NCBI RefSeq assembly: GCF_015704865.1
Contig: NZ_JADQTO010000001.1
Span: 62,001 to 126,000, forward strand
DNA length: 64,000 bases
From: Actinoplanes aureus
GTDB lineage: Bacteria; Actinomycetota; Actinomycetes; Mycobacteriales; Micromonosporaceae
Direction of reading: 5' to 3'
The notes beneath the pieces are model-generated. The model made no database searches, was not told the DNA's origin, and was given only the letters and a program-made list of their open reading frames with translations. This document shows, piece after piece, positions 26,264 through 58,883 of the stretch (its first letter is position 1; each line of letters starts with the position of its first letter). The translations under genes were made by a program, and so were the position numbers.

Positions 26264-26270
26264 GCCGTAC

Positions 26271-26293
26271 ATCCTCCCTCGGGGGTACGACAG
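26271..26293 (-). promoter_or_regulatory. Weak PafBC/RecA-NDp-like box before lhr
   Basis: On the minus strand CTGTCGTACCCC matches the upstream half of the box found before recA and the YcaQ-type gene. At the -10 position (N8 later) GAGGAT replaces TAnnnT and overlaps the ribosome-binding site. It is therefore a partial match only. Confidence 0.25.
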
Positions 26294-26497
26294 AAATCGG
26301 CGGCTCGGTTCCCCGTACTCCCGCTTTGTGTTTTGCGTGAGGGCGCGCTGAGCGCGACCGTGCCGGCTTCCCCGGGGGTACGCGAGATCGAATCGTTCTC
26401 GCATCCCACCGTGCCGCACGCGGTGACCGGGTGATCGTCGTTCCATGGGCGGTCTGTGGCTGATTATCCTGATACCCGACGTGATGGGTGGGTGCCG

Positions 26498-28705
26498 ATG
26501 GCGGTCAGGCAGATGCTCGTTGCTGGTCGGTACCGTCTTCTGGAGCCGGTCGGCGCCGGCGGAATGGGACGCGTCTGGCTGTCCCGCGATGAGATGCTGG
26601 ACCGTGACGTCGCGATCAAGGAGATCGTCCCGCCGGACTGGATGACCGAGGCGGAGAAGGATCGGCTGCGTGACCGGACGCTTCGTGAGGCCCGTAGCGC
26701 GGCCCGGCTGAACCATCCCCACGTGGTCCGGATCTACGACGTGGTGCACGACGACGGCCAGTCGTGGATCGTCATGGAGTACGTTCCGTCGCGCTCGCTC
26801 CACCAGGTCCTCCAGCAGGAAGGGCCGTACGATCCGGCCGGCGCCGCCCGCATCGGGCTCGCCGTGCTGGACGCGCTGGACGCGGCACACCGGGCCGGGG
26901 TGCTGCACCGCGACGTGAAACCGCACAACGTGCTGATCGGCACGGACGGCCGGGTGGTCCTGACCGACTTCGGGCTGGCCACGTTCGTCGACGACGGCAC
27001 GGTCACCGCGCCCGGGCTGATCGTCGGGTCGCCGCAGTACGTCTCTCCGGAGCGGGCCCGGGATGGCGCTTCTACGGTGGAATCGGACCTGTGGTCGCTC
27101 GGTGCCACGGTCTATGCGGCGGTCGAGGGCCGTTCGCCGTACGCCCGCGAGACCGCCATGGCGACGCTCGCCGCCCTCGCCACCGAACCGCCCGACCCGC
27201 CGGTACGCGCCGGTCCGCTCACAGCCGTCCTCGACGGACTCCTGCGGTACGACCCGGTCGACCGCCTGACCGCGGCCGAGGTGGAGAGCCGCCTGCGCCT
27301 CATCGTCGCCATCGACCACCGGGAGATTCCGCTGGTCCCAGGCCAGCGCGGGGTCCGGCATCACCGCCCGGAGGAGGCACGCAAGTCTGCGGACGGAGCC
27401 GCATCCGAGTATCGCGTCCATTCGACGGAGCGCGATGTGGGCGATCGTGACCGCGTGCCGGATGCCGCAGGGACCGCTGGACAGATCCCTCCGCAGTCGG
27501 GCGACGCCTTTGACGCGCACCGGCGCGATGCGAACGCCGGAGCGGACGTCGACGGCCACCCGGAACCGGCGATCGATGAGCCCGGAGCCGGTGACCTCTC
27601 GAAAGCCGACCCCGACAGCGGACCATGCGCGGAGTCTGGAGTGCCCGCCTGTCCCGGCAGCCCGCCGAGTCCGGCCGACGAGACCAGTGTCGCCGGCCAA
27701 CCGGAGGCCCCTGACCCATTCGCGGTCGCTGCCGACGACGCGACGACCACACCGTTGCACCAGGGCGGTCAGGCGCTGGTACGCCTGGCACCACAGACGC
27801 CTCCCATCCTGGCCGGCCAGATCACGGGACGGGTGACGTCCCCGAAGGGCCGTCCGCGGCTGCGCCCGGTCCGCGCCCGATCCGCCGTGGTCGCCTGCGT
27901 CGCGGTCGTGCTGGTGGGCGGCGGCGTCTCGATGGGCTATCTGGCGCAGAACAGCGGGCCCCGCCCGCACGTGGTGCTTCCGCCCGTTTCCACTACGCAG
28001 TCCGAGCCCGTGCGAGCCCCGGCGACGCCGTCCGGGCGTTCGCCCGCCGCGTCCGCCCAGCCCGGCGGCACGTCCGCTTCGGCGCCCGGCCCGTCGCCCG
28101 GGGCCTTGCCGACCACCGCGGTTGCCGGTCGGGGCGGATTCTCCCCGGTCGTCTGCGACGCGCCGCCTTCGTCGCGCGCCCGGGTCACCCCGAAGAAGGG
28201 CGCAGCCCGGGGAGTCAACGGCTTGAAGTTGCTCGCCGGATGGTCCTACTTCACCGACGGCTCGGGGTTTCACCTCGCGGTTCCGGACGGCTGGACCTAC
28301 CAGCGGATCGGCACCACGTATTGCTTTCGTGAGCCCCGAGGCTCCGTGGTGATGAGTCTCGATCCGGGCCGTGACGCGGATGCCGATCCGCTCCAGGCCT
28401 GCCATGCCGAGGACCTCCGTCTCAAGAGCGAAGCAGTCGTGTCCGGGTACGCGCTGATCTCCATCGACTCGGCGCCTTTGCTCCACCGAGCGGCCGACTG
28501 GGAGTACCGCTATCAGGGAGCGGACGGCGAGCCGAGGCGGGTGAGCACTCGCTGGTTCGCTGTCAACGGCAGGGCGTACGCCCTCGGCTGGGCCGCGCCC
28601 GAAAGGGTGTGGCCGGAGCACCTGAGCAAGATCCAGATGGTCCGGAGCACCTTCTACACGGACCGTTCCGGCCGTACCCCGACCGCCGACTCCGGCCGAG
28701 GCTGA
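26498..28705 (+). CDS. Transmembrane serine/threonine protein kinase
   Basis: A 735-residue Hanks-type kinase. The catalytic domain spans about residues 10-270: glycine loop GAGGMG, the VAIK lysine, HRDVKPHN catalytic loop, DFG, and the SPQYVSPE activation-segment end. A long charged linker of about 190 residues follows. A single membrane helix lies near residue 465 (SAVVACVAVVLVGGGVSMGYLA region), and there is a Pro/Ser/Thr-rich stalk and an extracellular domain of about 165 residues without PASTA repeats. GTG 26456 is an upstream alternative start. The gene is divergent from lhr. The signal sensed is unknown; the outer domain resembles no family I recognise. Confidence 0.92.
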   Translation: MAVRQMLVAGRYRLLEPVGAGGMGRVWLSRDEMLDRDVAIKEIVPPDWMTEAEKDRLRDRTLREARSAARLNHPHVVRIYDVVHDDGQSWIVMEYVPSRSLHQVLQQEGPYDPAGAARIGLAVLDALDAAHRAGVLHRDVKPHNVLIGTDGRVVLTDFGLATFVDDGTVTAPGLIVGSPQYVSPERARDGASTVESDLWSLGATVYAAVEGRSPYARETAMATLAALATEPPDPPVRAGPLTAVLDGLLRYDPVDRLTAAEVESRLRLIVAIDHREIPLVPGQRGVRHHRPEEARKSADGAASEYRVHSTERDVGDRDRVPDAAGTAGQIPPQSGDAFDAHRRDANAGADVDGHPEPAIDEPGAGDLSKADPDSGPCAESGVPACPGSPPSPADETSVAGQPEAPDPFAVAADDATTTPLHQGGQALVRLAPQTPPILAGQITGRVTSPKGRPRLRPVRARSAVVACVAVVLVGGGVSMGYLAQNSGPRPHVVLPPVSTTQSEPVRAPATPSGRSPAASAQPGGTSASAPGPSPGALPTTAVAGRGGFSPVVCDAPPSSRARVTPKKGAARGVNGLKLLAGWSYFTDGSGFHLAVPDGWTYQRIGTTYCFREPRGSVVMSLDPGRDADADPLQACHAEDLRLKSEAVVSGYALISIDSAPLLHRAADWEYRYQGADGEPRRVSTRWFAVNGRAYALGWAAPERVWPEHLSKIQMVRSTFYTDRSGRTPTADSGRG

Positions 28706-46479: not shown

Positions 46480-48270
46480 ATGGCCACCTTCCCCCGTACC
46501 CCCCTGTCTTTCCGGGATGAGCAGAGCCAGACCGCGGTGACCGCCACCCGGGCGGTCTTCGCCCTGATCGGGGTGCTGGCGCTGGTCCTGGGCTTCTTCG
46601 GGCTGGATCAGTACCTGGCCCGGGGTGACGATCCGGCCGCCCGCGACCCGCTCAACCTCATGTACGGCACGCTCCAGCTGTTCGTCCTCGGTGCCGATCC
46701 GCTGGAGGGCGGCACCGACTTCCCGCCGGCCCTCCAGATCGCCCGGTTCGCGGCACCCATCGTGACGCTGTACGCGGTCGTCGAAGCGGCCCGGCTGCTG
46801 CTCTCCTCGGAGCTGCGCCGGCTGCGTGCCCGCCGTTCGAGCGGGCACGTGGTGGTCTGTGGCGACACCTCGGTGGCGCGGACCCTCGCACACCGGCTGC
46901 ACCTGAGCGGCCGCCGCGTCGTGGTGGTACGAACCCAGCCGATCGGCCCCCTGGAACTGCGCCGCCGCAGCCTGCTCGGGGTGCAGGGCGACGGCCGCGA
47001 CCCGGACGTGCTGCGCGGTGCCGGCGTCGCCCGGGCCGCCGTGCTCTACGCCTGCGCGGACACCAGCGCCGCGAACCTCGCGATCGCGGCGGCCGCCGCC
47101 CGGGTGGCCTCCTCGCGCAGCGACATCGCCCTCTACGCCCAGATCCACGAGCCGGAGTGGGCATTGACCCTGCAGGCTCGCCGCCTGGGTGTGCCGCACA
47201 CGCCGGGGCAGCGCCTGGACTTCTTCCATCTCGATCAGCTCGCCGTCCACGTGCTGCTCGACCAGCAGCCGCTGCCGGTCCGGCCGGACGAGGTCACGCG
47301 GCTGCTGGTCGCCGGCGACTCGTCGCTGGCACAGGTGCTGCTGCTGGAGATCGCCCGCCATTGGCGACTGCGCCGATCCGAACCGCACCAGCGGGTGGAC
47401 GTGGACATCGTGGCCACGGACGCCGCCCGGAATCTCGGCGAACTGACCCACCGGCACGAGGTGATCCTGGACGGCTGCCGCCCGGTGCCGTACGAATCCT
47501 CCTTGCACGAGTTGCTGGAGGAGGGCGACCTGGGCCGCTACGACCGGGCCTTCCTGTGCTTCTCCGACGACCGGGAAGGGCTGGAACTGGCCCTGCGCGA
47601 GCACCGGCTCTGGCGCCGGGTGAGCGGTGACATCGTCGTGGTGGTGGACGCGCTCGCCTCGATCACCGAGGCGTTCAGCCGCCACCACCGGGAGCAGCCG
47701 CTGCTCGACCCGATCGACGGCCGGGTCAAGCTGTTCTCCGCGGTGGCCGCCGGCTGCGATCCGGCGCTGATCGCCGACGACCTGTCCGAGCGGCTGGGCC
47801 GCCTGATCCACGAGCGTTTCGTCGAGGGCTGTCTGCGCCGCGGCGAGAAACTGGGTAGCACACCCGCCCTGCGTCCGTGGGTGGACCTCGACGAGGAGCT
47901 GCGGCGATCGAACCGCCGGCAGGCCGACGACATCGGGGTCAAGCTGCACATGGTCGGCTGTGCCGTGGTGCCCGCCGACGGCAGCGCCGACGACTTCCGT
48001 TTCGCGCCGGACGAGGTCGAGCTGCTGGCCCAGCGCGAGCAGGAGCGGTGGGCGCGCGCGGCCCGAGCCGACGGGTGGGTGCACGGTCCGGAGCGGGACC
48101 GGGCTCGACGCCGATCTCCGGATCTGGTGGACTGGCAGGATCTGGGACCGGAGGGACGTGCCAAATGTCGCTCCGCAGTTCTGGAGATACCGCACATTTT
48201 GGCCGACGCCGGGTTTCGGGTGGTGCGGTTGACGGAAACTGGAGCAGATCGGGTGTTCGACCCGGCATGA
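46480..48270 (+). CDS. Two-TM protein with tandem TrkA-N (RCK-like) domains and C-terminal RyR domain
   Basis: A 596-residue protein. Two membrane helices lie at about residues 24-42 and 89-108 with a short re-entrant-like segment between them (LMYGTLQLFVLG). From residue 122 comes a Rossmann TrkA-N domain (HVVVCGDTSVARTLAHRL), and a second Rossmann unit starts near residue 273 (RLLVAGDSSLAQVLLLEIA). The C-terminal 110 residues contain the RyR-type pattern ELLAQREQERWARAARADGW then a helix ending RAKCRSAVLEIP. The layout suggests a ligand-gated membrane protein or channel sensing a nucleotide. The ATG at 46480 has GAGAGG upstream; GTG 46444 is an alternative. The SLOG-like gene follows after 19 bases. 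Confidence 0.8.
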   Translation: MATFPRTPLSFRDEQSQTAVTATRAVFALIGVLALVLGFFGLDQYLARGDDPAARDPLNLMYGTLQLFVLGADPLEGGTDFPPALQIARFAAPIVTLYAVVEAARLLLSSELRRLRARRSSGHVVVCGDTSVARTLAHRLHLSGRRVVVVRTQPIGPLELRRRSLLGVQGDGRDPDVLRGAGVARAAVLYACADTSAANLAIAAAAARVASSRSDIALYAQIHEPEWALTLQARRLGVPHTPGQRLDFFHLDQLAVHVLLDQQPLPVRPDEVTRLLVAGDSSLAQVLLLEIARHWRLRRSEPHQRVDVDIVATDAARNLGELTHRHEVILDGCRPVPYESSLHELLEEGDLGRYDRAFLCFSDDREGLELALREHRLWRRVSGDIVVVVDALASITEAFSRHHREQPLLDPIDGRVKLFSAVAAGCDPALIADDLSERLGRLIHERFVEGCLRRGEKLGSTPALRPWVDLDEELRRSNRRQADDIGVKLHMVGCAVVPADGSADDFRFAPDEVELLAQREQERWARAARADGWVHGPERDRARRRSPDLVDWQDLGPEGRAKCRSAVLEIPHILADAGFRVVRLTETGADRVFDPA

Positions 48271-48289
48271 CGAGGGCGGGAGGACTGGG

Positions 48290-48757
48290 ATGACGACCAT
48301 CGGAGTCACCGGGCACATCCGCCTGACGCCGGCCGCCAGCAAGCTGATCTACCAGGAGCTCGTGCGTTACCTGATGAGGTTCCCCCGGGTGCACGGGATC
48401 ACCTGTCTCGCCGACGGCGCCGACCAGCTATTCGCCCGCGCGATCCGGGCCTGCCACGGCACCTTCGACGTGGTGCTGCCCGGAGCGGCCACCCCGCCGG
48501 CCCGCCTGTTGACCCAGGCCGGCCGGGTGTCCCGGGTCGAGGTGCCCGGCCCGCCCGAGGCGGCGTACGAGGCGGCCAGCCGCGAGGTGGTCGACCGCAG
48601 CGACATCCTGGTCGCGGTCTGGGACGGCGACCCGGCCGGCGGGCGCGGCGGCACGGCCGAGACGGTCGAGTGGGCCCGGGCGCGAGGCAAGACGGTCGTG
48701 CAGCTCTGGCCCGCGGGTGCCCGCCGGATGCCGCCGGTCACCGTGCCGGTGGGCTGA
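48290..48757 (+). CDS. SLOG (DprA/LOG-like Rossmann) domain protein
   Basis: A 155-residue stand-alone Rossmannoid protein. The start TTIGVTGHIRLTPAA, the GITCLADGADQLFARA segment and the late DILVAVWDGDPAGGRGGTAETVEWAR segment form the nucleotide-binding pattern of SLOG/LOG-like domains. SLOG proteins bind or process nucleotide-derived ligands and are often linked to RyR domains in predicted conflict systems. It forms a two-gene operon with the RyR protein. Its 3' end overlaps the convergent SCO2521-family gene by 20 bases. Confidence 0.78.
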   Translation: MTTIGVTGHIRLTPAASKLIYQELVRYLMRFPRVHGITCLADGADQLFARAIRACHGTFDVVLPGAATPPARLLTQAGRVSRVEVPGPPEAAYEAASREVVDRSDILVAVWDGDPAGGRGGTAETVEWARARGKTVVQLWPAGARRMPPVTVPVG

Positions 48758-49703
48758 CCGGCCGCGTCGGACGGCGTCCGTCAGCCGCCTGCAACAGATC
48801 CAGCGTCTCGACCGTGATCTGGTCGCGGATGCGGGCCACCGCGGCCTCCCACTGCCGGGTGAAGCCGGGACGCTGGTCCAGCGCCTCCCATACCGGCAGC
48901 AGCTGCTCGGGCACGTGCGCGGCCGGCATCCAGAGATGCAGGAGATGCTCCAGCAGCGGTTGCAGCCGGCTCACCCGATCGGTACGGCTGCGGTCGTGGG
49001 CGAGCGTCGCGTCCAGGACGGACAGCACCGTGGTCAGCAGCCAGTCGTGCAGGGCCAGGTCCTCGCAGAGCGCGACCACAGCCGTCAGGTCCGCGGTGGG
49101 CACGCGAAGTTCCATAGTGCGGAGTTCATCCGAGACGAGCGTGAAGACACCGTCCGGTTCGCTCAGGCTTTTGTCCAGCACGGCGGTCCACCGCAGCCGG
49201 AGACGCGATGTTCGCAGCGGCGGTGCGTGGTCGACCAGCCGTGACCGTTGCACGGTGTCCACCATCCGGGTGGTGATCGCGCTGAGCTCCAGGGTCTTCG
49301 CGGTCCGGGCGCCGCTGAGCACGCCGAGCGCGACGTCCTTCGAGTCCAGTTTGCCGATCGCCTCCAGCTGTCCCGGGCTGGCCAGGTAGTGCGACCAGGG
49401 CAGCCGTACGGTGTTGCGGGCCGGCGCCACCTGGGCGTACGCGGAGCCCTGAATGACGTGCCCACCGACGACGACGACCCGGGCCAGCACGGTGCCGATG
49501 CCCCGGGTGTGCCGCCCGGAGACGGCCGGCAGGAGGCAGTCCACGCCTTCCTGCTGGTCCTGCGAGCAGGTGCGCCCGATGGGGCGCTCCACCGTCTGGA
49601 TCCGCTCGTCCACCGCGGTGGCGACCAGCTGCTCGGTTCCTCGCCGGGACAGCGCGGCGGAGTTCTGCAGAAGCCCGGTCTGCACCTCGCCGAAAGCCAA
49701 CAT
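48738..49703 (-). CDS. SCO2521 family protein
   Basis: A 321-residue protein resembling the Streptomyces SCO2521 family, known only as part of a conserved SCO2521-2524 gene set. No catalytic motif, signal peptide or membrane helix is visible. The N-terminal half is beta-rich with an AFGEVQTGLLQNSAAL start, and the C-terminal 120 residues are helical. GGAGG sits four bases before ATG 49703, which also fits the family start; ATG 49733 would add ten residues. Unlike the other family genes it is separated from SCO2522-2524 by two plus-strand genes. The function is unknown. Confidence 0.7.
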   Translation of the reverse strand: MLAFGEVQTGLLQNSAALSRRGTEQLVATAVDERIQTVERPIGRTCSQDQQEGVDCLLPAVSGRHTRGIGTVLARVVVVGGHVIQGSAYAQVAPARNTVRLPWSHYLASPGQLEAIGKLDSKDVALGVLSGARTAKTLELSAITTRMVDTVQRSRLVDHAPPLRTSRLRLRWTAVLDKSLSEPDGVFTLVSDELRTMELRVPTADLTAVVALCEDLALHDWLLTTVLSVLDATLAHDRSRTDRVSRLQPLLEHLLHLWMPAAHVPEQLLPVWEALDQRPGFTRQWEAAVARIRDQITVETLDLLQAADGRRPTRPVSPPAR

Positions 49704-49885
49704 GAGTCCTCCGCGGACGTTTCCTGGATCCATCGTGACGCTCCGGTTCGAGGCCGGGCAAACAGCGGCGTGCCGAGCTCGCGCCGGAAGGATATGCGCT
49801 TGTCACGCCTGCTCGTCTCAGGTGCGGCCGGGCGCCGAAATTTCGGTCCGTGCGACGCCGCCGAGTAAGCCATTAGTGTCGGGGG

Positions 49886-50851
49886 GTGACCGTTACCAAC
49901 GTCGATGCCATCGTGGTGGGTGCGGGCGTCTGCGGTTTGACGAGCGCCCTCTGTCTGGCCCGGCGTGGGTTGTCGGTGCGGATCGTGGCGCGGCGGCTCC
50001 CGCCGGACACCAGCTCCTGCGCGGCGGGGGCGATGTGGGGCCCCTTTCTGGTCGGTCACCCGGATGCCGGGCGGTGGGCGAGGGAGAGCCTGGAGGTCTT
50101 CCGTGAGCTCGCGGGCAGGCGCGCCGCCGGGGTCCGGATGGTACGCGGTGTCGAGGCGGCACGGGAGGTCGCGGTTCCGCATCCCTGGCTCTTCTACACC
50201 CGGGACCTGGAGGTCTGCGACGAGAGCGCGTGGCCGGGCTATCGCAGCGCCTGGCGTTACACCACGGCGGTGGTGGACATGCTCGCCTACTCGGACCATC
50301 TGATGGCGGAGCTGCGCGCCGCGGGCGTGGCGGTGGAGCAGCGTGAGATCGCCTCGCTGCGTGCACTGGTGGGCAGTGCCCCGGTCGTCGTCAACTGCAG
50401 CGGCTCCGGCGCCCGCCGGCTGGCCGCGGATCCGGCCCTGATCCCGGTGCGCGGTGTGGTGGTGGTCGTCGGCAACCCCGGGATCGACACCTTCTTCGCC
50501 GAGGAGGGAGCGGGCCCGGAGCTCACCTACTTCATCCCGCACGGTGACACGGTGGTGCTGGGCAGCACCCTGGAGACGCCGGGCGGGGCACCCGTGCCGG
50601 AAACCGTGGCGGTGGAGCGCATCCGGGAGCGCTGCGCGGAGATCGAGCCGCTGCTCCGGGACGCTCCGGTGATCGGCGTCCGGGCCGGTTACCGCCCGGT
50701 GCGCGACGAGATCCGGCTCGAGGTGACCAGCCTGGACGGCCAGCTCATCGTGCACAACTACGGCCACGGTGGTGGCGGGGTCAGCGTCTCCTGGGGCTGC
50801 GCACACGACGTGGCGTCCATGGTGGAGGCTTGCCTGTCCCGGATATATTGA
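49886..50851 (+). CDS. FAD-dependent D-amino-acid oxidase-like protein
   Basis: A 321-residue DAO-family flavoprotein: the dinucleotide-binding motif VVGAGVCGLTSAL at the N-terminus, the AAGAMWGPF segment, the NCSGSGARRLA motif, the PVRGVVVVV segment and the C-terminal HNYGHGGGGVSVSWG motif. All are typical of D-amino-acid oxidases and D-aspartate oxidases. It starts at GTG 49886, is divergent from the SCO2521-family gene, and is followed after 77 bases by the STAND NTPase on the same strand, so the two may share a transcript. It might belong to the surrounding system or be an unrelated passenger. Confidence 0.85.
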   Translation: MTVTNVDAIVVGAGVCGLTSALCLARRGLSVRIVARRLPPDTSSCAAGAMWGPFLVGHPDAGRWARESLEVFRELAGRRAAGVRMVRGVEAAREVAVPHPWLFYTRDLEVCDESAWPGYRSAWRYTTAVVDMLAYSDHLMAELRAAGVAVEQREIASLRALVGSAPVVVNCSGSGARRLAADPALIPVRGVVVVVGNPGIDTFFAEEGAGPELTYFIPHGDTVVLGSTLETPGGAPVPETVAVERIRERCAEIEPLLRDAPVIGVRAGYRPVRDEIRLEVTSLDGQLIVHNYGHGGGGVSVSWGCAHDVASMVEACLSRIY

Positions 50852-50928
50852 CCGCTACGCAGCGCTGCCGGGGAGCGTCGCCGAGTGATCGCCGCTGCCT
50901 GCTCCGGCTGTGGCGAGGGGAGAAATGC

Positions 50929-53900
50929 TTGACCGAGGCCTACATCTCCGCCACGTTCGAGGATCTGAGGGAGTGCCGCCAGGCGGTCCGCAGTGCGCTC
51001 GAGCTGTTCGGCCTGCCGTTCCGGACGATGGAGAAGTATTCCGCCGGTAAGTCCACCCCTCTGGCACGCTGCCTCGCCGATGTCGAGTCGTGCGACATCT
51101 ACATCGGCATCTTCGCCTGGCAGTATGGCGACACCCCGCCCAACCAGTCGAAGTCCTTCACCCACCTGGAGTACGAGCACGCCGTCGCCAGGGGTAAGGA
51201 CTGTCTCATCTTCCTGCACAACCAGGACGCGCCATGGCCGGTCAGGTTCGTCGACCGCGGCCCGAAATCGGTACACGTCGACGCGCTGCGAAAGGTGTTG
51301 CAGACCCAGCACCTGTGCGACTTCTTCGACTCGCCCAGCGACCTCGCCCTGCTGGTCTACGGCGCGGTCCACAAGCTGCTGGAGGAGCGTGCCCGGGAGG
51401 AGACCCCGGTGCCCGCCGTTGCCCAGGTGGCCGGCCTGAGCCCGGCGGCGACCGAGCACTACTTCGAGCGCCTCCGCCAGCAGTACGGCGGGCTCGACCT
51501 GCTCAATCTCTCCCCCCAGCAGTACCTCGGCACGCAGTTGCTGGACGTCTTCGTGGAGCCGCGTGCGCGTGACGACCAGCCACCGCCCGCACTCGATCCC
51601 AGTCCGCGCGGTGCGGCCGACGCCAAGCGCTACGACCGGTCGGCCCTGCCGAAGTCCTGGCCCGGGCAGCCGGTTCTCGACGTGGTGTGCGACCGGCAAC
51701 GCCTGGTGCTGATCGGTGACCCGGGCGCCGGCAAGTCAGCCGTCGTGCGTTACCTCGCCCTCCGCCTCGCCCGCGCGCACGCCGACGAACGGCTCGCTGT
51801 CCTCGCCGATCACCTGCCGATCCTGGTCGAGCTGCGGTCGTACGCCGGGGCCGTCGCCGCCGGCCAGTGCCGCAACTTCCGGGAGTACCTGGCGTACCGC
51901 GCGGCCACCGACGGCTATGAGGAGGAGCCCGACGGCCTGCGCCTGCACCTGGCCCGCGGTGACCCGGCGGTGGTGATCTTCGACGGCCTCGACGAGATCT
52001 TCGACCGGCGCATCCGGGAGGAGACGGCCGGGCAGATAGCGGCCTTCGCCGAGAGCTTCCCCAATGCCCGGGTCGTGGTGACCACTCGCCCCGCGGAGTA
52101 CAACCGGGTTGCCTTGGCCGCGGCCGGCTTCGCCCACTACACCCTGCAGCGGTTCGCACCGGAACAGGCCGCGGACTTCCTGGGCCGCTGGTTCCAGGCG
52201 GTGTCCGAGACCGACGCCACGGTCCGGCGCGAGGTCGTCCTCGGCACCATCCGCCGGTCGCCGGAGCTCACCGAGCTGGCCGGCAATCCGATGCTGCTCA
52301 GCATCCTCGCCGTGCTCGGGCGGCATCGCATGCTGCCGAAACAGCGGTGGCGGCTCTACAAGGAAGCCGCCGTCACGCTGGTGCACAGCTGGGATGACAG
52401 CCGGATGGTGAACACGGACGCCGGGTCGCAACTCCTCGACGCCGACGAGAAGCACAATCTGCTGCGCTCATTGGCGTTCGACATGATGTCCGGCCGGCTG
52501 GGACCCCACGGTGATCATGTGAGCGGCGACGAGCTCCGGCAGATCTTCGCCCAGCACCTGGTGCGGCAGGGTTCGAGCTGGACCGAGGCGAAGGCGTCCG
52601 CCAAGCAGACCATCGAGCAGCTCCAGAAGCGTAGCTTCGTGCTGGGCCGGGCCGGTCGCGCCGACTACCGCTTCGTGCACCGGACGTTCCTGGAGTTCTA
52701 CTGTGCCTGGGCGATCGTCGAGAGGTTCAAACGGCACGAGGCGCGCGAGGAGATCAAGTCCCTGTTCCGCGACAGGTGGGCGGATCCGGGATGGCGGGAG
52801 ACACTCCGGCTGGTCGCCGGCCAGGTGTCGGTGCCGCTCGCGGCCGAGCTCGTCGAGTTGCTCGTCACCGAGATCAATCCGGACTGGCACCGGGATCCTC
52901 CGCCCGACCCGCCGTGGAACGTGGTGCTGGCCGTGCAGTGCCTGGCCGGGATTCACCCGATCGAGGACGCCGGGCCGGCCGCCGGCCTGGTGTTGCGTCA
53001 GGTCAGCCTGGTTCTGGAGCACTGCGCCAGGACGCCGGCCGAGTCCCGTTCGGCCTACTCGGATCTGCTGGTCGACGAGCTGATCCCGGCGGTCGAGGCG
53101 GTCGGATCGAGCTGGCCGGAGAGCGAGACCTACCTGGACTGGTATCGGCGGGTGGGAGTGCGGATCGTCAGCGACCAGCTATCGGCATCCACGTCCCGGG
53201 CGATCGACACCGCCGCGCTCGCCGAGACCCCTGCGGTCTCCGCGGCCCGGATCGCGGCGATCCTCGCGAAGCCGGGGGAACGCCTGGTCGAGACGTTCGA
53301 GTCCCAGCTCGACGATGCCGCCGACGTCCGGATCCTCTGTGCCGCGGTGGCCGGCCTCGGCGAGCTGGCGCAGCAGGCAGTCCGGCATGAGGCGACCGAG
53401 CGGGGCCGGCCGGCGCTGGAGCCGCTGTTGCGCATCGCCCGTGGTGCCGAACAAGCGGTTGTCCGCCTCGCTTCGGTGCAGGCCCTGGCACCCCTGGCCG
53501 CGGTCTATCCCGAGTCACGCGACGTGCTCTTCGAGGCGGCGAGCACCGATGCCTTCTCCACGGTCCGGCTCTCGGCCGTACAGATTCTCGGTGAGCGTCT
53601 GAGCGGTGAGCCGGGTGTCGTGGAGGTCCTGCTCCATTCCCTGCGTAACGATCATCATGCGGTGGTACGCGCCGGCGTGGTACGGGTTCTGGCGCGGAGC
53701 CGGCAGCTCTCGGGCGAGGTGGTGGAGGCCTTGATGGAGGCCTGCCGCCGTGACCCGGCATCGGAGGTGGTGGAGGCGGCCGCCGGGGTGTTGCTGCCCC
53801 GCGCCGAGACCGATGGCGAGGCCCGTGAGGTGCTGCTGGCCCGGATGGGTAGCGACCCTGTCGCCGGTGTCCGCCGGACCGCGGTCGGCCTGCTCGGGCG

Positions 53901-55107
53901 CAGCGGCTCCGAGGGCGCCCTGCTCGAGCGGATCCGCGATGACACGCACGGACTGGTGGTCCGGGATGCGGCCGTCGCCCTCGCAGCCCGTGGTCAGCGG
54001 CCGCGGGAGCGATCGTGGGAGGCGCTGAGGGCCCGCCTCGCCGCCGAACCGGACGAGGTGATGCGGCGCGCCGTGGTTCGTACGCTCAGCAGCGCCTACG
54101 GGTCCCATCCCCGCCTGGAAGCCGCCCTGACGACGGCGGCCCGCGACACCGAGCCGTCCGTCCGGCTGGCCGCGGTGCAGGGGCTGGCCGACCTACCGGA
54201 GACCACGTCCCGGCGGCGCCTGCTGGTCCGTGTCGCCGGCACGGACGCGACACCGTCGGTCCGTCAGGCCGCTGTCGAAGCGCTCGGCTCGGACCGCGAC
54301 GAGACCGTCACCAAGGCGCTGGTCGAAGTCGCCGAGAACGACCGGGACACGGAGATCAGGACGGCTGCTCTGCGCGGCCTCTGCGGCCGGCCCCTGGACG
54401 CCGCGACGGGCGGCGCACTGGTGCCGCTCACCGGCGACGGCCACCACCCGCAGATACGTCTGGCAGCGCTCCAGGTGCTGATCGGATTCTGCCCGGCCGG
54501 GGTCGATCTAGCCGGGGTGCTGCTGGATCGGATCTCCCATGACAGCGTGGGTGAGGTTTTCGCCGCCGCCGCGGCCGCCGCGGTCGGCGATACCACCACC
54601 GCGGCCCCGCTCTGGACCGTGATCGCGGAACGTGCCACCAGTGACCCCAAGCCGGAGATCCGCGCGGCTGCGGTGGGGCTCCTCGGTTCCGGCGCCGATC
54701 CGAAGACCGCCGCCGAGGTGTTCCGGGATCGGGTCCGGCGCGACGCCGATCCGTCAGTGGTCGCCGCGGCGGCGGCCGCGGCCGCCGACCTCCAGGAGGA
54801 CGACCTGCGCGACGAACTGCTGGCCCGGCTCTCCAGCGGGGAGCCGGCGATCCGGCAGGTCGTGATCCGGGCCCTGGCCGGCTGGCTCACCGACGACACG
54901 GTGCGCCGGGAGGTGCTGACGCAGGCCCGGGACGCGGAGCAGCACGAGGTGCGGCGGGCGGCGGTGGAGATCCTTGAGCCGGTCGCCCACCTGGGCGACG
55001 TTCAGGACGTCCTGATCACCTGCACCGCGGATGAGGACTTCGCGGTCAGCAGCACCGCGCAGAACCTGCTCCGTCTCAACGACCGGTGGCGGGAGCCCAA
55101 TCGTTGA
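50929..55107 (+). CDS. DUF4062-NACHT-HEAT repeat STAND NTPase
   Basis: A 1392-residue three-part protein. Residues 1-150 form a DUF4062 domain (AYISATFEDLRECR, then FTHLEYEHAVARGKDCL). Residues about 255-640 are a NACHT-type P-loop NTPase: Walker A GDPGAGKS at 263-270, Walker B VVIFDGLDEIFD near 348 and the arginine motif VVVTTRP near 382. Residues about 760-1380 are a long HEAT-repeat array. NACHT STAND proteins of this design act as immune or signalling switches, and several bacterial ones defend against phage. A TTG start at 50929 is chosen because GAGGGGAG lies six bases before it and the DUF4062 domain begins there; an upstream TTG at 50830 lacks support. The 3' end overlaps the convergent SCO2522-family gene by 32 bases. 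Confidence 0.88.
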   Translation: MTEAYISATFEDLRECRQAVRSALELFGLPFRTMEKYSAGKSTPLARCLADVESCDIYIGIFAWQYGDTPPNQSKSFTHLEYEHAVARGKDCLIFLHNQDAPWPVRFVDRGPKSVHVDALRKVLQTQHLCDFFDSPSDLALLVYGAVHKLLEERAREETPVPAVAQVAGLSPAATEHYFERLRQQYGGLDLLNLSPQQYLGTQLLDVFVEPRARDDQPPPALDPSPRGAADAKRYDRSALPKSWPGQPVLDVVCDRQRLVLIGDPGAGKSAVVRYLALRLARAHADERLAVLADHLPILVELRSYAGAVAAGQCRNFREYLAYRAATDGYEEEPDGLRLHLARGDPAVVIFDGLDEIFDRRIREETAGQIAAFAESFPNARVVVTTRPAEYNRVALAAAGFAHYTLQRFAPEQAADFLGRWFQAVSETDATVRREVVLGTIRRSPELTELAGNPMLLSILAVLGRHRMLPKQRWRLYKEAAVTLVHSWDDSRMVNTDAGSQLLDADEKHNLLRSLAFDMMSGRLGPHGDHVSGDELRQIFAQHLVRQGSSWTEAKASAKQTIEQLQKRSFVLGRAGRADYRFVHRTFLEFYCAWAIVERFKRHEAREEIKSLFRDRWADPGWRETLRLVAGQVSVPLAAELVELLVTEINPDWHRDPPPDPPWNVVLAVQCLAGIHPIEDAGPAAGLVLRQVSLVLEHCARTPAESRSAYSDLLVDELIPAVEAVGSSWPESETYLDWYRRVGVRIVSDQLSASTSRAIDTAALAETPAVSAARIAAILAKPGERLVETFESQLDDAADVRILCAAVAGLGELAQQAVRHEATERGRPALEPLLRIARGAEQAVVRLASVQALAPLAAVYPESRDVLFEAASTDAFSTVRLSAVQILGERLSGEPGVVEVLLHSLRNDHHAVVRAGVVRVLARSRQLSGEVVEALMEACRRDPASEVVEAAAGVLLPRAETDGEAREVLLARMGSDPVAGVRRTAVGLLGRSGSEGALLERIRDDTHGLVVRDAAVALAARGQRPRERSWEALRARLAAEPDEVMRRAVVRTLSSAYGSHPRLEAALTTAARDTEPSVRLAAVQGLADLPETTSRRRLLVRVAGTDATPSVRQAAVEALGSDRDETVTKALVEVAENDRDTEIRTAALRGLCGRPLDAATGGALVPLTGDGHHPQIRLAALQVLIGFCPAGVDLAGVLLDRISHDSVGEVFAAAAAAAVGDTTTAAPLWTVIAERATSDPKPEIRAAAVGLLGSGADPKTAAEVFRDRVRRDADPSVVAAAAAAAADLQEDDLRDELLARLSSGEPAIRQVVIRALAGWLTDDTVRREVLTQARDAEQHEVRRAAVEILEPVAHLGDVQDVLITCTADEDFAVSSTAQNLLRLNDRWREPNR

Positions 55108-56053
55108 TGAAGGCGTAATCGATGCGATCGAGGATCTCCGGCGGGAGCTGGATGCTCTCGGCGCGAGCCCGGGCGTTGAGGTCCGCCGTGATGAGCGCGT
55201 CGACCTCGACCTGTTGCAGCACCGTCCGGGCGGCCATCTCGACCTCCATGAAACGGGTCGGGAGGATCGAGAAGCTGCGGTACGCGCAGAACGGGTTCGG
55301 GGTGTCGGTCAGCTTGATCACCGGCGGCAGATCGGACCAGGCGCTCGGGTAATCGCCCCGCACCTTCACCGGCTTGGTGAGCTGCTTGTCCTCCGGCCGG
55401 AGGACACCCAACCGGAGGAGCTGCCACACCGAGGCCAGGAACGAGCACGACCACAGGTCGTCCTTGATCTGCACGTCCATGAAGATGGAGTGCCGGTTGG
55501 CGGCGGTCTGTTCGGGGCCGTGCCACGTACCGTCCGCCATGGCCGGCACCACTGTGGGGTCGAAGGACCGGCGACCGTTCGCCAGCCAGCCGGATTTCTC
55601 GAGCGGCGGCCGGCTCCCGTTGGCGCCGGGCAGCGGCTCCGGAACGATGCTGTCGAAGACCTGCTGCGCCAGCTTGGTCGCCCCGAACTCGGCGCAGCTC
55701 GACTCACGGGCGATGTAGTCGATCTCCAGCCCGCTCTTGGCGGCCGCGTCGACCACTTTCTTGATGATCACCCGGGGATCGTCGAGCCGGCTGAAGTAGT
55801 CGTCGATCAGAAAGCACGTGCTGATGCGCGACGACGTGCTGCCCCAGCGGCCCATCGACTTGGTGGCCTTGACCCAGTGGGAGACGCTCCGGAAGTACTC
55901 GGCGAGCCGGCTCTCACTCTCCGGGTCCTGCAGGTCCTCCATGTAGAGGTGGCCCAGCTCGAGCGAGACGTGCGAGAGCCCGACGGAAGGAGCGGTCCGT
56001 TCGGCCGCCTTCTCCCGGTAGACCACGCGTTGGCGGTGCGGGGCTACCGTCAT
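55076..56053 (-). CDS. SCO2522 family protein
   Basis: A 325-residue soluble protein matching the SCO2522 family by character and context. It contains acidic motifs such as TCFLIDDYFSRLDDPR (about 80-95), an IDYIARESSCAE segment and a C-terminal YAFINDW stretch. The DD-Y-F pattern suggests a Rossmann-like or nuclease-like core, but no family with known activity is recognised. Its ATG overlaps the stop of the SCO2523-family gene (ATGA), so it is translationally coupled to it. It is the last gene of a three-gene minus-strand operon. Confidence 0.72.
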   Translation of the reverse strand: MTVAPHRQRVVYREKAAERTAPSVGLSHVSLELGHLYMEDLQDPESESRLAEYFRSVSHWVKATKSMGRWGSTSSRISTCFLIDDYFSRLDDPRVIIKKVVDAAAKSGLEIDYIARESSCAEFGATKLAQQVFDSIVPEPLPGANGSRPPLEKSGWLANGRRSFDPTVVPAMADGTWHGPEQTAANRHSIFMDVQIKDDLWSCSFLASVWQLLRLGVLRPEDKQLTKPVKVRGDYPSAWSDLPPVIKLTDTPNPFCAYRSFSILPTRFMEVEMAARTVLQQVEVDALITADLNARARAESIQLPPEILDRIDYAFINDWAPATGR

Positions 56054-56967
56054 AGGGTCTCCCAAGCAGAGTCGTCGACGAGGCGCCTCGCCAACGAATC
56101 GAAGGCGTTTCGCGTCTCCTGGTTCGCGACGCCGGCCACCACGTCCTTGTCAGTGATCAACTGTTCCTGCCATTGCAGCATGGGATCCAGAGGAACGGTC
56201 CCTAATACTAAATTTTTGCCGACTTGGTGGTCTCCCGCCAGCCGGGTGAGTCGCCTATTGCACTCGTCGAGCCAAACGCCCTGCTTAGCGGTGAGGCCAC
56301 TCTGTGCCGAAGGTGCCGGATCGATCACCGCGGTGCGGACGTATCGAAGATTGCTGGCGAACTCCTGCCGGTCGTGACCCAGGGTCTGTGCGGAGGCGAG
56401 GAGGCCGTGCGGCCCGTTGACGAGGCCGCCCGCCGCCACCACGTGCTGCCTGGTCCACCGGTGGAAGACCAGCCAGCGACTCATGATGTTGCGCATCTCC
56501 GGCCTGGCGGTCACCTTCAGAACCGTTTCGACGGCGATGTTCCGCCCGGCGCTGAGGTCGACCATGCAGAGGCTGAACTCCTCGTTGAGCCGGAGGAACA
56601 GCTTGAGACACTGCTCCTCCAAGCCGCCCCGCCTCGGGAAGTCGCCGCTGCCGACGTCACCCGGGAGCAGGACGAGACGGCCGGTGTTGGCCTGCCCCTC
56701 ACGGATGGCGCGCCGGTCGGTCGACGTCCAGATGTCGATGCGCTCCGGCTCCTCCACCTCCTTGAGCAGGAAGCGGTAGAGGCCGGACCCGCTCTGGGTG
56801 CCGTTCTCAGCCTTCTCGATGCCGAAGATGGCGCCCGCTGTCGGCGAGCCGAAGTCGAAGTCGAGGTAGCAGACGTCGTTGCCCTGCAGAGCGCTGCGAT
56901 ACAGCAGGTTGCTGCTGGTCACCGATCGGCCGGTACCGCCCTTGTCGGACGCGGCGAAGACGAACAT
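56050..56967 (-). CDS. SCO2523 family variant P-loop protein (ParA/MinD-like)
   Basis: A 305-residue ParA/MipZ-like P-loop protein. The N-terminus FVFAASDKGGTGRSVTSSNL has a deviant Walker A in which the usual KGGxGKT/S lysine is replaced by arginine (KGGTGRS); the signature first lysine is kept. The Walker A' strand CYLDFDFGSPT follows. The CMVDLSAGRN strand is at the Walker B position. Such proteins often act at membranes or in positioning; whether this one hydrolyses ATP is doubtful. It shares one base with the SCO2524-family stop (TGATG) and is coupled to both neighbours. Confidence 0.8.
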   Translation of the reverse strand: MFVFAASDKGGTGRSVTSSNLLYRSALQGNDVCYLDFDFGSPTAGAIFGIEKAENGTQSGSGLYRFLLKEVEEPERIDIWTSTDRRAIREGQANTGRLVLLPGDVGSGDFPRRGGLEEQCLKLFLRLNEEFSLCMVDLSAGRNIAVETVLKVTARPEMRNIMSRWLVFHRWTRQHVVAAGGLVNGPHGLLASAQTLGHDRQEFASNLRYVRTAVIDPAPSAQSGLTAKQGVWLDECNRRLTRLAGDHQVGKNLVLGTVPLDPMLQWQEQLITDKDVVAGVANQETRNAFDSLARRLVDDSAWETL

Positions 56968-58883
56968 CAGATCGCCGTACTCTCGTTCTGGCGGACGGCG
57001 TCGAGGCCGTCGAGCTCCAGCAGGATCCAGCTCACCAGGGCGGTCGCCGATCCCGGCCGGGTACGAGCGATGGATCGCGCCCGGTCGAGTTTGGCCCGGA
57101 TCTCGGTCAAGACGTCCATCACCTCGAGGCTGGCATCGGCGGAACCCCTCATGAGCTCCATGTCGTACAGGTGCTCGGCCTCGAACAGCAGGTCGAAGGC
57201 GTGGATCACGAGCCGGTCGTTGACGAGCGGTTCCTCGCTCAGCAGGTTAGCCGTGCTGACCAGGCCCGCCACCACCCGTTCGGTGTAGTACCACGACGGT
57301 TGCTCGTACCCGGGGAGCTCTTCGAACACGTTGGACGGCTGGTCCCACAGTCTGCGGTGGCTCGTGCCGGACAGCCGGCGGCGGGAGAGATGGTCCCACA
57401 CCCCGTCCGCCAGGCGCAGCAGGCGCGCGCGCTCCTCCACGTCGCTCAGCAGGCCGGCGATGGCGACCGAGCGCTGGAGCAGCAGAGAGGCGAACTCCCC
57501 GACGTACCACACCGATTTCGTCTTGTCCGGTGAGTCGTCGGCGCTGCCCTCCAGGACGACCTCCAGGCCGGGATGGTGCAGCCGCAGGCCCGAGTCGCCC
57601 GGGCGGTGCCGGCGGGTCACCCGGCCCTCGTTCGACAGGTCGGCCAGCACGGCGCCGATCCGGGCCAGGCGGGTGTCCGCACCGCGTCGCCGGACCAGGT
57701 CCTTCACCACGATCGAGGTCACCAGGAGGCTGTAGTACTCGCTGCGGAGCCCGTCGGTGGTCTGCCATGGTGGGTCCTCCAGCGGCCACTTCGGCCCGCC
57801 GCTGAACGTCGCCACCGTCGCCCAGTAGGTGAGGGTGAGATCCCAGCGCAGCTGGAGCGCACGCGACAGGCGCTGCTGCTCCTCGTTGAGCAGACCCAGC
57901 ACACGGGTCCGCTCGGAGAAGAGGTCCTCGATCGCGTCGACCGCCACCACGGTGAAGTAGAGGTACGGCTTGTTCTCCGCGATGCCCTCCGGCTGCGGGC
58001 CGATGTCCTCGATCTCCTCCGGCGGCGCTGCGGCCGGTACCTCTCCGGTGGCCGGCTCGCCCCCTCCGACCGGCTTGTACTCCAGCGCGACCTCGGGCGC
58101 TTCCTTGACGATGCCCCACGACCAACCGCACTCGAAGAGCGCGTTGGCGCCCTCGAGCGCCTGCGTCTGCCCCGATCCGATCAGGACCTCGCCGAAGGAC
58201 GCGATCGTCTCCTGCAACGCCGTACGGAATTGGTTGACGACCGTCTTGGACGGCGCCTGGCTCTTGTTGATGGTGCGGAGCAGGACCTGCCCGGGATCGT
58301 CGTCCGCCTCGAAGACGTGCGTGGAGAAGCTCCGGAGCAGGCCGACCATGGCCGCGGTGAGCCGGGTGCTGGCGAGTCTTTCCAGCTCCCGCAACTCGCG
58401 GCGCAGATTCATCCGGGTGACGGACTGCCGGAAGATGCGGACGAAACCGATGGTGGCCAGCGACAGCGTCACCGAGATCGCGAACGAGTCCACGATGTCG
58501 CGACCCAGCTGCTCGTCGGTCAGCTTGCCGCCCTCGTCGGACTTGTAGTAACTGCCGCCGGAGAAGATCGGGCGGCCGTCGTTCTTCTCGTCGACGTACC
58601 GGGTGAAGTAGTCGGTGGCGATCCGGACCAGGTTGAGCGGGATGCTCTTCTCGTCGCCGAGCGGCCGGAGTGCCTCGAGCATGGCGTCGGCCGTGGCGTT
58701 CGGCCGGTCCAGCGCGAACGGTGTCACCTGTGTGGCCGGGAGCAGGATGCAGAGCAGCTGCTCGGCGTCACTGATGGAGTTGGATCCGTCGCGGCCACCC
58801 CAATGCCATCGACCGTCGCGCCACGAGCTCAGAACCGTCGCTTTCCAGGTCTCCAGCAGATGCTGTCGCGGTTCGATCCTCAC
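56967..58883 (-). CDS. SCO2524 family protein
   Basis: A 638-residue, mostly helical protein matching the SCO2524 family by size and position; it is the first gene of the SCO2524-SCO2523-SCO2522 operon. One hydrophobic stretch (about residues 134-150, FAISVTLSLATIGFVRIF) might touch the membrane. A Glu/Pro-rich loop (about 270-300) divides two helical halves. No catalytic motif is apparent. It starts at GTG 58883 with only a weak ribosome-binding site. The promoter should lie in the 58884-59130 stretch, which has no gene. Confidence 0.7.
   Translation of the reverse strand: MRIEPRQHLLETWKATVLSSWRDGRWHWGGRDGSNSISDAEQLLCILLPATQVTPFALDRPNATADAMLEALRPLGDEKSIPLNLVRIATDYFTRYVDEKNDGRPIFSGGSYYKSDEGGKLTDEQLGRDIVDSFAISVTLSLATIGFVRIFRQSVTRMNLRRELRELERLASTRLTAAMVGLLRSFSTHVFEADDDPGQVLLRTINKSQAPSKTVVNQFRTALQETIASFGEVLIGSGQTQALEGANALFECGWSWGIVKEAPEVALEYKPVGGGEPATGEVPAAAPPEEIEDIGPQPEGIAENKPYLYFTVVAVDAIEDLFSERTRVLGLLNEEQQRLSRALQLRWDLTLTYWATVATFSGGPKWPLEDPPWQTTDGLRSEYYSLLVTSIVVKDLVRRRGADTRLARIGAVLADLSNEGRVTRRHRPGDSGLRLHHPGLEVVLEGSADDSPDKTKSVWYVGEFASLLLQRSVAIAGLLSDVEERARLLRLADGVWDHLSRRRLSGTSHRRLWDQPSNVFEELPGYEQPSWYYTERVVAGLVSTANLLSEEPLVNDRLVIHAFDLLFEAEHLYDMELMRGSADASLEVMDVLTEIRAKLDRARSIARTRPGSATALVSWILLELDGLDAVRQNESTAI

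Follow-up and report, generated by a model that had tools for sequence, protein, structure and literature searches.

Does the large STAND NTPase gene enclosed by the SCO2521-SCO2524 genes of Actinoplanes aureus belong with them, and what could such a set of genes do? The question arises in a 64,000-nucleotide stretch of this 10.7 Mb genome (contig NZ_JADQTO010000001.1, positions 62,001 to 126,000), here called the window, in which four core families surround a D-amino-acid-oxidase-like flavoprotein (DAO) and a DUF4062-NACHT-HEAT protein, referred to below as the switch. We find that the locus is a genuine co-inherited cassette. We read it as a signalling or conflict cassette in which a conserved core (SCO2524-2523-2522-2521, often with SCO2525) is joined to an exchangeable output, here a STAND switch that would deplete NAD, and we regard this reading as about evenly balanced between right and wrong. 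The initial annotation had called SCO2521-2524 uncharacterized, and the literature searched gave no functional account of the four families beyond the mention of an operon and a regulon, and turned up no data on defence, NADase activity or interactions of these proteins.

Genes of the locus

The six-gene arrangement of the initial annotation is exact to the base, and the families of the genes are secured by NCBIfam, Pfam and PDB matches.

48738..49733, minus strand: SCO2521 family protein, 331 residues (NF040565, E = 1.6e-113; NCBIfam 379 bits, cut-off 150)
49886..50851, plus strand: D-amino-acid-oxidase-like flavoprotein (DAO), 321 residues (Pfam PF01266, E = 2.5e-37; PDB 1an9, E = 4e-41)
50929..55107, plus strand: DUF4062-NACHT-HEAT STAND protein, 1392 residues, TTG start (Pfam)
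55076..55107, no strand: 32-base overlap where the NACHT and SCO2522 genes meet tail to tail (open reading frame coordinates)
55076..56053 (or to 56065), minus strand: SCO2522 family protein (NCBIfam 374 bits, cut-off 200; modelled fold)
56050..56967, minus strand: ParA/MinD-like protein of the SCO2523 family, variant P-loop KGGTGRS (NF040564, E = 3.4e-138; 460 bits, cut-off 200)
56967..58883, minus strand: SCO2524 family protein (NF040567; NCBIfam 865 bits, cut-off 300; modelled as an (alpha/alpha) toroid)

All four core families exceed the curated NCBIfam cut-offs, and the SCO2525 methyltransferase had no match in the cassette row of the window. The SCO2524 and SCO2523 genes overlap by 1 base and SCO2523 and SCO2522 by 4 (SCO2522 start at 56053); for SCO2521, the gene caller favours an alternative start at 49703 (321 residues). 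The 32-base stop-stop overlap of the NACHT and SCO2522 genes recurs in 6 of 22 measured convergent pairs (the window, L065, L069, L087, L088 and L090).

Pfam assigns to the switch DUF4062 (E = 9e-20), NACHT (PF05729, E = 3.8e-10) and HEAT_2 (E = 6.5e-49, nine stretches). With Walker A and Walker B in the NACHT domain and C-terminal HEAT_2 repeats, it belongs to the NACHT STAND proteins. Glu81 of DUF4062, Walker A (GK[ST]) and Walker B (DGLDE) are invariant in 30 of 30 orthologues, and by sequence the motifs of the switch are intact. Matching by eye, we tentatively equate Glu81 with the published catalytic glutamate of DUF4062. A PADLOC scan of eight proteins returned nothing naming a system; the STAND protein matched HEAT-ARM_XIII (E = 4.6e-22, repeats only), OloA (E = 5e-5) and PtuA (E = 0.0076).

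Linkage and co-inheritance of the switch with SCO2524

The first 693 residues of the switch were compared with 200 genomes of the family (E up to 1e-60), which gave 55 matches in 46 genomes. Among the homologues that keep DUF4062, all 31 with an open frame of 1396-1640 codons lay within 10 kb of a SCO2524 gene, as did one of the two with shorter frames and none of the four with longer ones. Only 1 of the 18 homologues without DUF4062 was near SCO2524. The matches near SCO2524 in the family search came from 11 genera. In a separate search of the genus, ten near-full-length matches and a fragment (G002) fell at SCO2524 loci, whereas ten others lay elsewhere. As all 31 DUF4062-keeping homologues with frames of 1396-1640 codons lie at SCO2524, the switch is no chance neighbour.

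Patristic distances were compared for 30 of the 31 loci, L100, with a NACHT fragment, being dropped. The distances of NACHT correlated with those of SCO2524 at r = 0.948 (n = 30) and with those of SCO2522 at 0.948, values reached by 0 of 1000 permutations; within the core, SCO2524 gave lower values, 0.887 with SCO2522, 0.897 with SCO2521 and 0.925 with SCO2523. These shared distances do not simply follow species descent, because monophyly of the ten window-genus rows was rejected for both the SCO2524 and the NACHT tree (approximately unbiased (AU) test, p-AU 8e-67 and 2e-38), L103 of the window genus paired with L231 of another genus in both trees (support 100), and the two Dactylosporangium vinaceum cassettes (L147, L148) were non-sister in either (p-AU 0.001 and 1.6e-8). 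Given that the distances agree and that both trees reject monophyly of the genus, the cassette seems to travel as one piece, joint transfer being judged from these cases.

One clade of the SCO2524 tree holds the switch in 31 of its 35 rows, and parsimony on the midpoint-rooted tree places the NACHT gene in the ancestor of this clade. Losses are undercounted, because the fragmentary window-like loci L112 and L118, which lack the switch, were dropped for length. With the gene at the base of its clade, we do not favour a history in which an older SCO252x operon of this clade acquired the STAND gene late. The initial annotation had described the locus as split by a nested STAND gene: the gene is indeed enclosed by SCO2524-2523-2522 and SCO2521, but the late insertion that this wording implies is at odds with the parsimony result.

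Chromosomal site

The cassette lies between the DUF349 and miaB genes. In seven relatives compared, all without SCO2524 there, this interval spans 78 bases (G045), includes a PALP gene at a length of 2.1 to 3.4 kb (G066, G040, G034 and G027), or holds a pair of RyR-TrkA and small-protein genes, alone in G039 and along with a DAO gene in G036. The site is variable and lies among core genes. The DAO-family gene of G036 (L268), standing there without SCO2524, is 43% identical to the window DAO. MiaA was matched in 67 of 67 genus genomes, and by comparison of coordinates SCO2524 is near it in 10. Searches for SCO2524 in viral contigs gave 13 pattern matches with no relative among them, and those in plasmids no match. 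Within the window, RyR-TrkA and 155-residue proteins (the latter SLOG-like by eye) are encoded at 46480-48757 on the plus strand and end against SCO2521. A 2000-residue Lhr-family helicase lies further off (21557-27559, minus strand).

The variable interval would suit an alternative in which an independent defence gene landed once in an accessory hotspot beside the core and was kept by linkage, with no joint function; the one-clade origin of the switch also fits, as a single landing then suffices. We consider this unlikely. The NACHT gene has been retained in 11 genera through changes of gene order and orientation and through apparent joint transfers, and among the 31 homologues with frames of 1396-1640 codons there is no stand-alone copy.

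Distribution of the core and its outputs

SCO2524 (NF040567) was detected in 51 of the 67 genus genomes, in 162 of 330 Micromonosporaceae genomes (30 of the 44 genera of the family) and in 7 of 396 genomes drawn across the phylum, the window genome counted. Neighbours of any SCO2524 gene were counted over about 9.5 kb on its downstream side and 6 kb on its upstream side. In the 51 genus genomes these included SCO2523 (51), SCO2522 (50), SCO2521 (48), SCO2525 (28), DAO (42), DUF6879 (33) and NACHT (11), together with phosphoesterase-NACHT-WD40 (3), nSTAND1-WD40 (2) and caspase-like AAA-WD40 (1) genes. The first sampled genome of 27 other genera gave DUF6879 in 15, DAO in 17, NACHT in 7 and phosphoesterase-NACHT in 1. 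The DAO, found in 42 of 51 and 17 of 27 genomes, therefore belongs regularly to these loci in this bacterial family; the STAND gene, at only 11 of 51, is a subtype marker and not the rule. The initial annotation had named, as the outcome that would count against it, that both genes be absent from nearly all other loci and show independent phylogeny and insertion scars; this came out so only in part, with the DAO at SCO2524 loci in 42 of the 51 genomes and the NACHT gene in 11. The tie that it drew between the STAND gene and the SCO252x set stands as co-inheritance (31/31, r = 0.948 and the AU tests) within one subtype.

Most genus genomes with the core have no STAND gene beside it, which also agrees with a biosynthetic or developmental core, itself without an immune role, whose product or complex the STAND protein guards, firing when phage or stress perturbs it. 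SCO2525, a putative methyltransferase, is reported to be required for normal growth of Streptomyces coelicolor (PMC11472566), described as morphogenetic (PMC6344877) and cited for mutagenesis effects (PMC3017869), and two core folds look enzymatic in predicted models. Tight co-inheritance with the core is likewise what one would expect of a dedicated guard. However, a guard of this kind leaves unexplained the other STAND types beside SCO2524 paralogues stripped of the core (L111, L113 and L114, below), and we find it rather doubtful.

Streptomyces, Kitasatospora and some others share the order SCO2525-2524-2523-2522-2521-DUF6879, with every gene in the same direction, which is likely the ancestral form. 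The commonest row (30 rows, a count holding some duplicates between the named and unnamed sets) is SCO2525> 2524> 2523> 2522> <DUF6879 <2521 DAO>. Four orders were seen in the NACHT subtype: 2524> 2523> 2522> <NACHT 2521>; the same with <DAO before 2521 (the window and, from other genera, G470 and G560); 2522> <2521 NACHT>; and 2522> <2521 DAO> NACHT>. Of the two enclosed genes, the DAO, which lies between NACHT and SCO2521, is the one that varies more.

If the cassette has an exchangeable output, its slot would be taken by the DUF6879 protein in most other loci and by the switch in this subtype. A set of 124 distinct complete loci was obtained by removing duplicates and SCO2524 proteins shorter than 550 residues (143 left), and then leaving out loci that had less than 8 kb downstream or lacked SCO2523 or SCO2522. 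The NACHT gene was present in 31 of these, DUF6879 in 76, neither in 17 and both in none; counting four phosphoesterase-NACHT loci, 35 have a STAND gene, none of them with DUF6879. Included in the 124 are the best 80 of 295 loci, a sample biased to window-like SCO2524 that served the trees and the comparison of architectures rather than estimates of frequency.

The DUF6879 label comes from one Pfam-scanned member (L104) and the profile of its cluster. The protein looks membrane-anchored, judging membrane segments by eye, and its profile found no useful relative in the PDB (one helical match, E = 0.0066). Two Catellatospora loci (L180, L181) are an exception to a clean swap, having DUF6879 plus a 1239-1248-residue protein beyond the DAO; the copy scanned (L180, 17097-20843) contains WD40 repeats and a KAP-type P-loop domain. 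Neither DUF6879 nor NACHT was found at the SCO2524 loci of Nocardia, Frankia and Amycolatopsis, where a 259-274-residue protein adjoins SCO2521 on the opposite strand, with apparent C-terminal membrane segments in L199. In Microtetraspora and its kin, a distinct 398-residue protein, FAD-dependent-oxidase-like by eye, adjoins the DUF6879 gene (L164, 15585-16781). Near other SCO2524 loci, three long proteins turned out to be ordinary: a DEAH-box helicase (L232), a Lon protease (L222) and a UPF0182 protein (L208).

Other STAND genes beside SCO2524

Six solo SCO2524 paralogues of at least 546 residues lack the other core genes. Three are preceded by STAND-type genes: in L111 (12986-19367) by a 1527-residue AAA-WD40 gene (gap -23), labelled caspase-like by eye, Pfam listing the AAA and WD40 parts only, and in L113 and L114 by nSTAND1-WD40 genes (gaps 2 and -4). 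L109, L116 and L117 are not so preceded, and the closest SCO2524 kin of L109 carry a phosphoesterase-NACHT gene. A third nSTAND1-WD40 copy adjoins broken SCO2524 remains in L115 (G063); L114 was scanned for this call, and L113 and L115 were placed by their shared cluster. Phosphoesterase-NACHT-pentapeptide-WD40 genes stand divergent to SCO2524 in L102, L106, L107 and L221, all without DUF6879. The WD40 part was found by Pfam in L106 and L221 (25 families listed), L102 and L107 being placed by clustering, and in L106 the phosphoesterase, NACHT and pentapeptide parts had NCBIfam matches, all below curated cut-offs. We take these other partners as suggestive.

The gaps of 2, -4 and -23, at which nSTAND1-WD40 or AAA-WD40 genes overlap or abut three solo paralogues, would suit a toxin-antitoxin-like relation in which core proteins such as SCO2524 bind the STAND switch and keep it off. 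We think this very unlikely: the core occurs without any STAND gene in most genus genomes, and in L250 (G462), where SCO2521 and SCO2522 look whole and SCO2524 and SCO2523 broken, the NACHT gene is full length.

Two of the four longer-frame DUF4062-NACHT-HEAT homologues found without SCO2524 have fused effectors by Pfam, namely nSTAND5 and TIR in L252 (5658-11774) and a caspase in L255 (7891-13158); L254 was judged TIR-bearing by eye, and L253 was grouped with these from its similar extra length only. With effectors fused in L252 and L255, the switch core would take an effector in cis when it lacks an SCO252x partner.

Folds of the core proteins and proposed mechanism

The predicted structure of SCO2522 resembles the catalytic folds of class I aminoacyl-tRNA synthetases. 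The likeness is one of fold alone: among 136 distinct SCO2522 sequences, a HIGH-like pattern occurred in one and a KMSKS-like pattern in none. The ExGH common in these proteins was tried as the HIGH motif and ruled out, as the pattern test fails and the aligned ranges place ExGH on the first strand. SCO2524 is predicted to form an (alpha/alpha) toroid, for which Foldseek gave no match under E = 0.001. Profile searches of the PDB found no useful relative of SCO2522 or SCO2524 (for the latter, three matches at E = 0.12 or worse) and none of SCO2521, which also has no Pfam family. The P-loop KGGTGRS of SCO2523 is at the expected place in most homologues. The DAO is a D-amino-acid oxidase by family and by its active-site stretches: its top PDB matches, 1an9 among them, are such enzymes, and it aligns with the pig enzyme around YIIP, VRLE and HNYGHGG, stretches that hold residues with active-site roles.

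In the reading of a co-inherited cassette with an exchangeable output, the HEAT repeats would respond to a trigger or to the condition of the core proteins, upon which the NACHT domain would oligomerize in an NTP-dependent manner and activate the TIR-like DUF4062; hydrolysis of NAD+ would then stop or kill the cell. The switch probably destroys the NAD of the cell. The core itself may be enzymatic, combining a synthetase-like fold, an (alpha/alpha) toroid, a methyltransferase and a D-amino-acid oxidase, and might make or modify a product, with the output monitoring how much of it there is or whether it is intact. More tentatively still, and somewhat improbably in our view, SCO2521-2525 could be an enzymatic messenger or modification module (SCO2522, SCO2524, SCO2525, the variant ParA SCO2523 and often the DAO), with interchangeable outputs reading its product or complex: DUF6879, DUF4062-NACHT-HEAT, phosphoesterase-NACHT-WD40, nSTAND1-WD40 or caspase-like AAA-WD40 proteins. 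It would then be a modular alarm on an amino-acid-derived signal, unlike nucleotide-signal systems.

Several observations weigh against the cassette with an NAD-depleting output. The core does not need the switch, which is missing from 40 of the 51 genus genomes with SCO2524 and from 4 of the 35 rows of its own clade. That clade has a FastTree support of 85 and depends on midpoint rooting, and the NACHT tree carries long-branch warnings, above all for L147 and L148. We do not lean on the mutual exclusion of DUF6879 and NACHT: despite a raw Fisher p of 2.7e-17 it is statistically weak, because three changes of the NACHT state suffice on the SCO2524 tree, with one informative independent pair and no significance. 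The ratio of nonsynonymous to synonymous substitution (dN/dS) counts for the reading, in that it is 0.33-0.41 in HEAT and 0.21-0.23 in NACHT (two window-clade pairs), and HEAT exceeds NACHT in three further pairs, narrowly in one (0.12 against 0.11); however, the linker between DUF4062 and NACHT, at 0.37-0.38, evolves as fast, so rate alone does not single out HEAT as the sensor. The flanking genes look like core metabolism (miaA, dapF and miaB by Pfam) and not like a defence island. Finally, the growth and morphogenesis role given to SCO2525 in the papers cited above fits housekeeping as well as conflict and, this often being the fifth gene of the set, weighs against a pure defence reading.

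Comparison with known systems

DUF4062 domains are described as TIR-like NADases, some of them antiphage, in a preprint (PMC13174449) covering Swarozyc and the TEP1/NWD1-type proteins. As in TEP1, NWD1, NWD2 and NPHP3, the DUF4062 of the window adjoins a NACHT ATPase, and its invariant Glu81 may correspond to the conserved glutamate; unlike the TEP1/NWD1 type, the switch has HEAT instead of WD40 repeats and a strict genomic partnership with SCO252x genes. Of those four human proteins only TEP1 hydrolysed NAD+ in that account (PMC13174449), so the NADase activity of the window switch cannot be assumed.

The switch also shares with bacterial NACHT (bNACHT) proteins, NLR-related and antiphage (PMC12169576), a central NACHT domain linking sensing to response. 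In S. coelicolor, sco2521-sco2526 form an operon in the HupS regulon, according to PMC11472566, and its four core families are those of the window. It differs from the window cassette, which lacks SCO2525: a DUF6879 gene follows SCO2521 in five of six named Streptomyces loci (in L195, the remaining one, the contig ends at that point), with no STAND gene labelled. To our knowledge, bNACHT systems act as single genes or small sets without an SCO252x-type core.

The NTP-dependent conflict systems of multicellular bacteria are, according to PMC7159879, multi-gene sets with an NTPase and variable outputs, MinD/ParA-like domains being among the effectors. The MoxR-vWA-VMAP trio of those systems was absent from the 16 window proteins scanned with Pfam; that text holds neither DUF4062 nor DUF6879, and its passages no SCO252x ('SCO' matched as a word start). 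The initial proposal of an undescribed NTP-dependent conflict or signalling system remains the best reading for a co-inherited locus with intact motifs and no functional account of SCO2521-2524 found, with the qualification that the STAND gene marks one subtype only.

Filamentous actinomycetes widely carry SCO2524 and its partners, and their strict partnership with a switch that is likely NAD-depleting offers a concrete handle on the SCO2521-2524 set. What the partner does can be tested directly with the domain-swapped relatives, which have a fused TIR, a fused caspase or SCO252x proteins in trans. Four genes travelling with an immune-type switch suggest a conserved but unstudied alarm or defence module.

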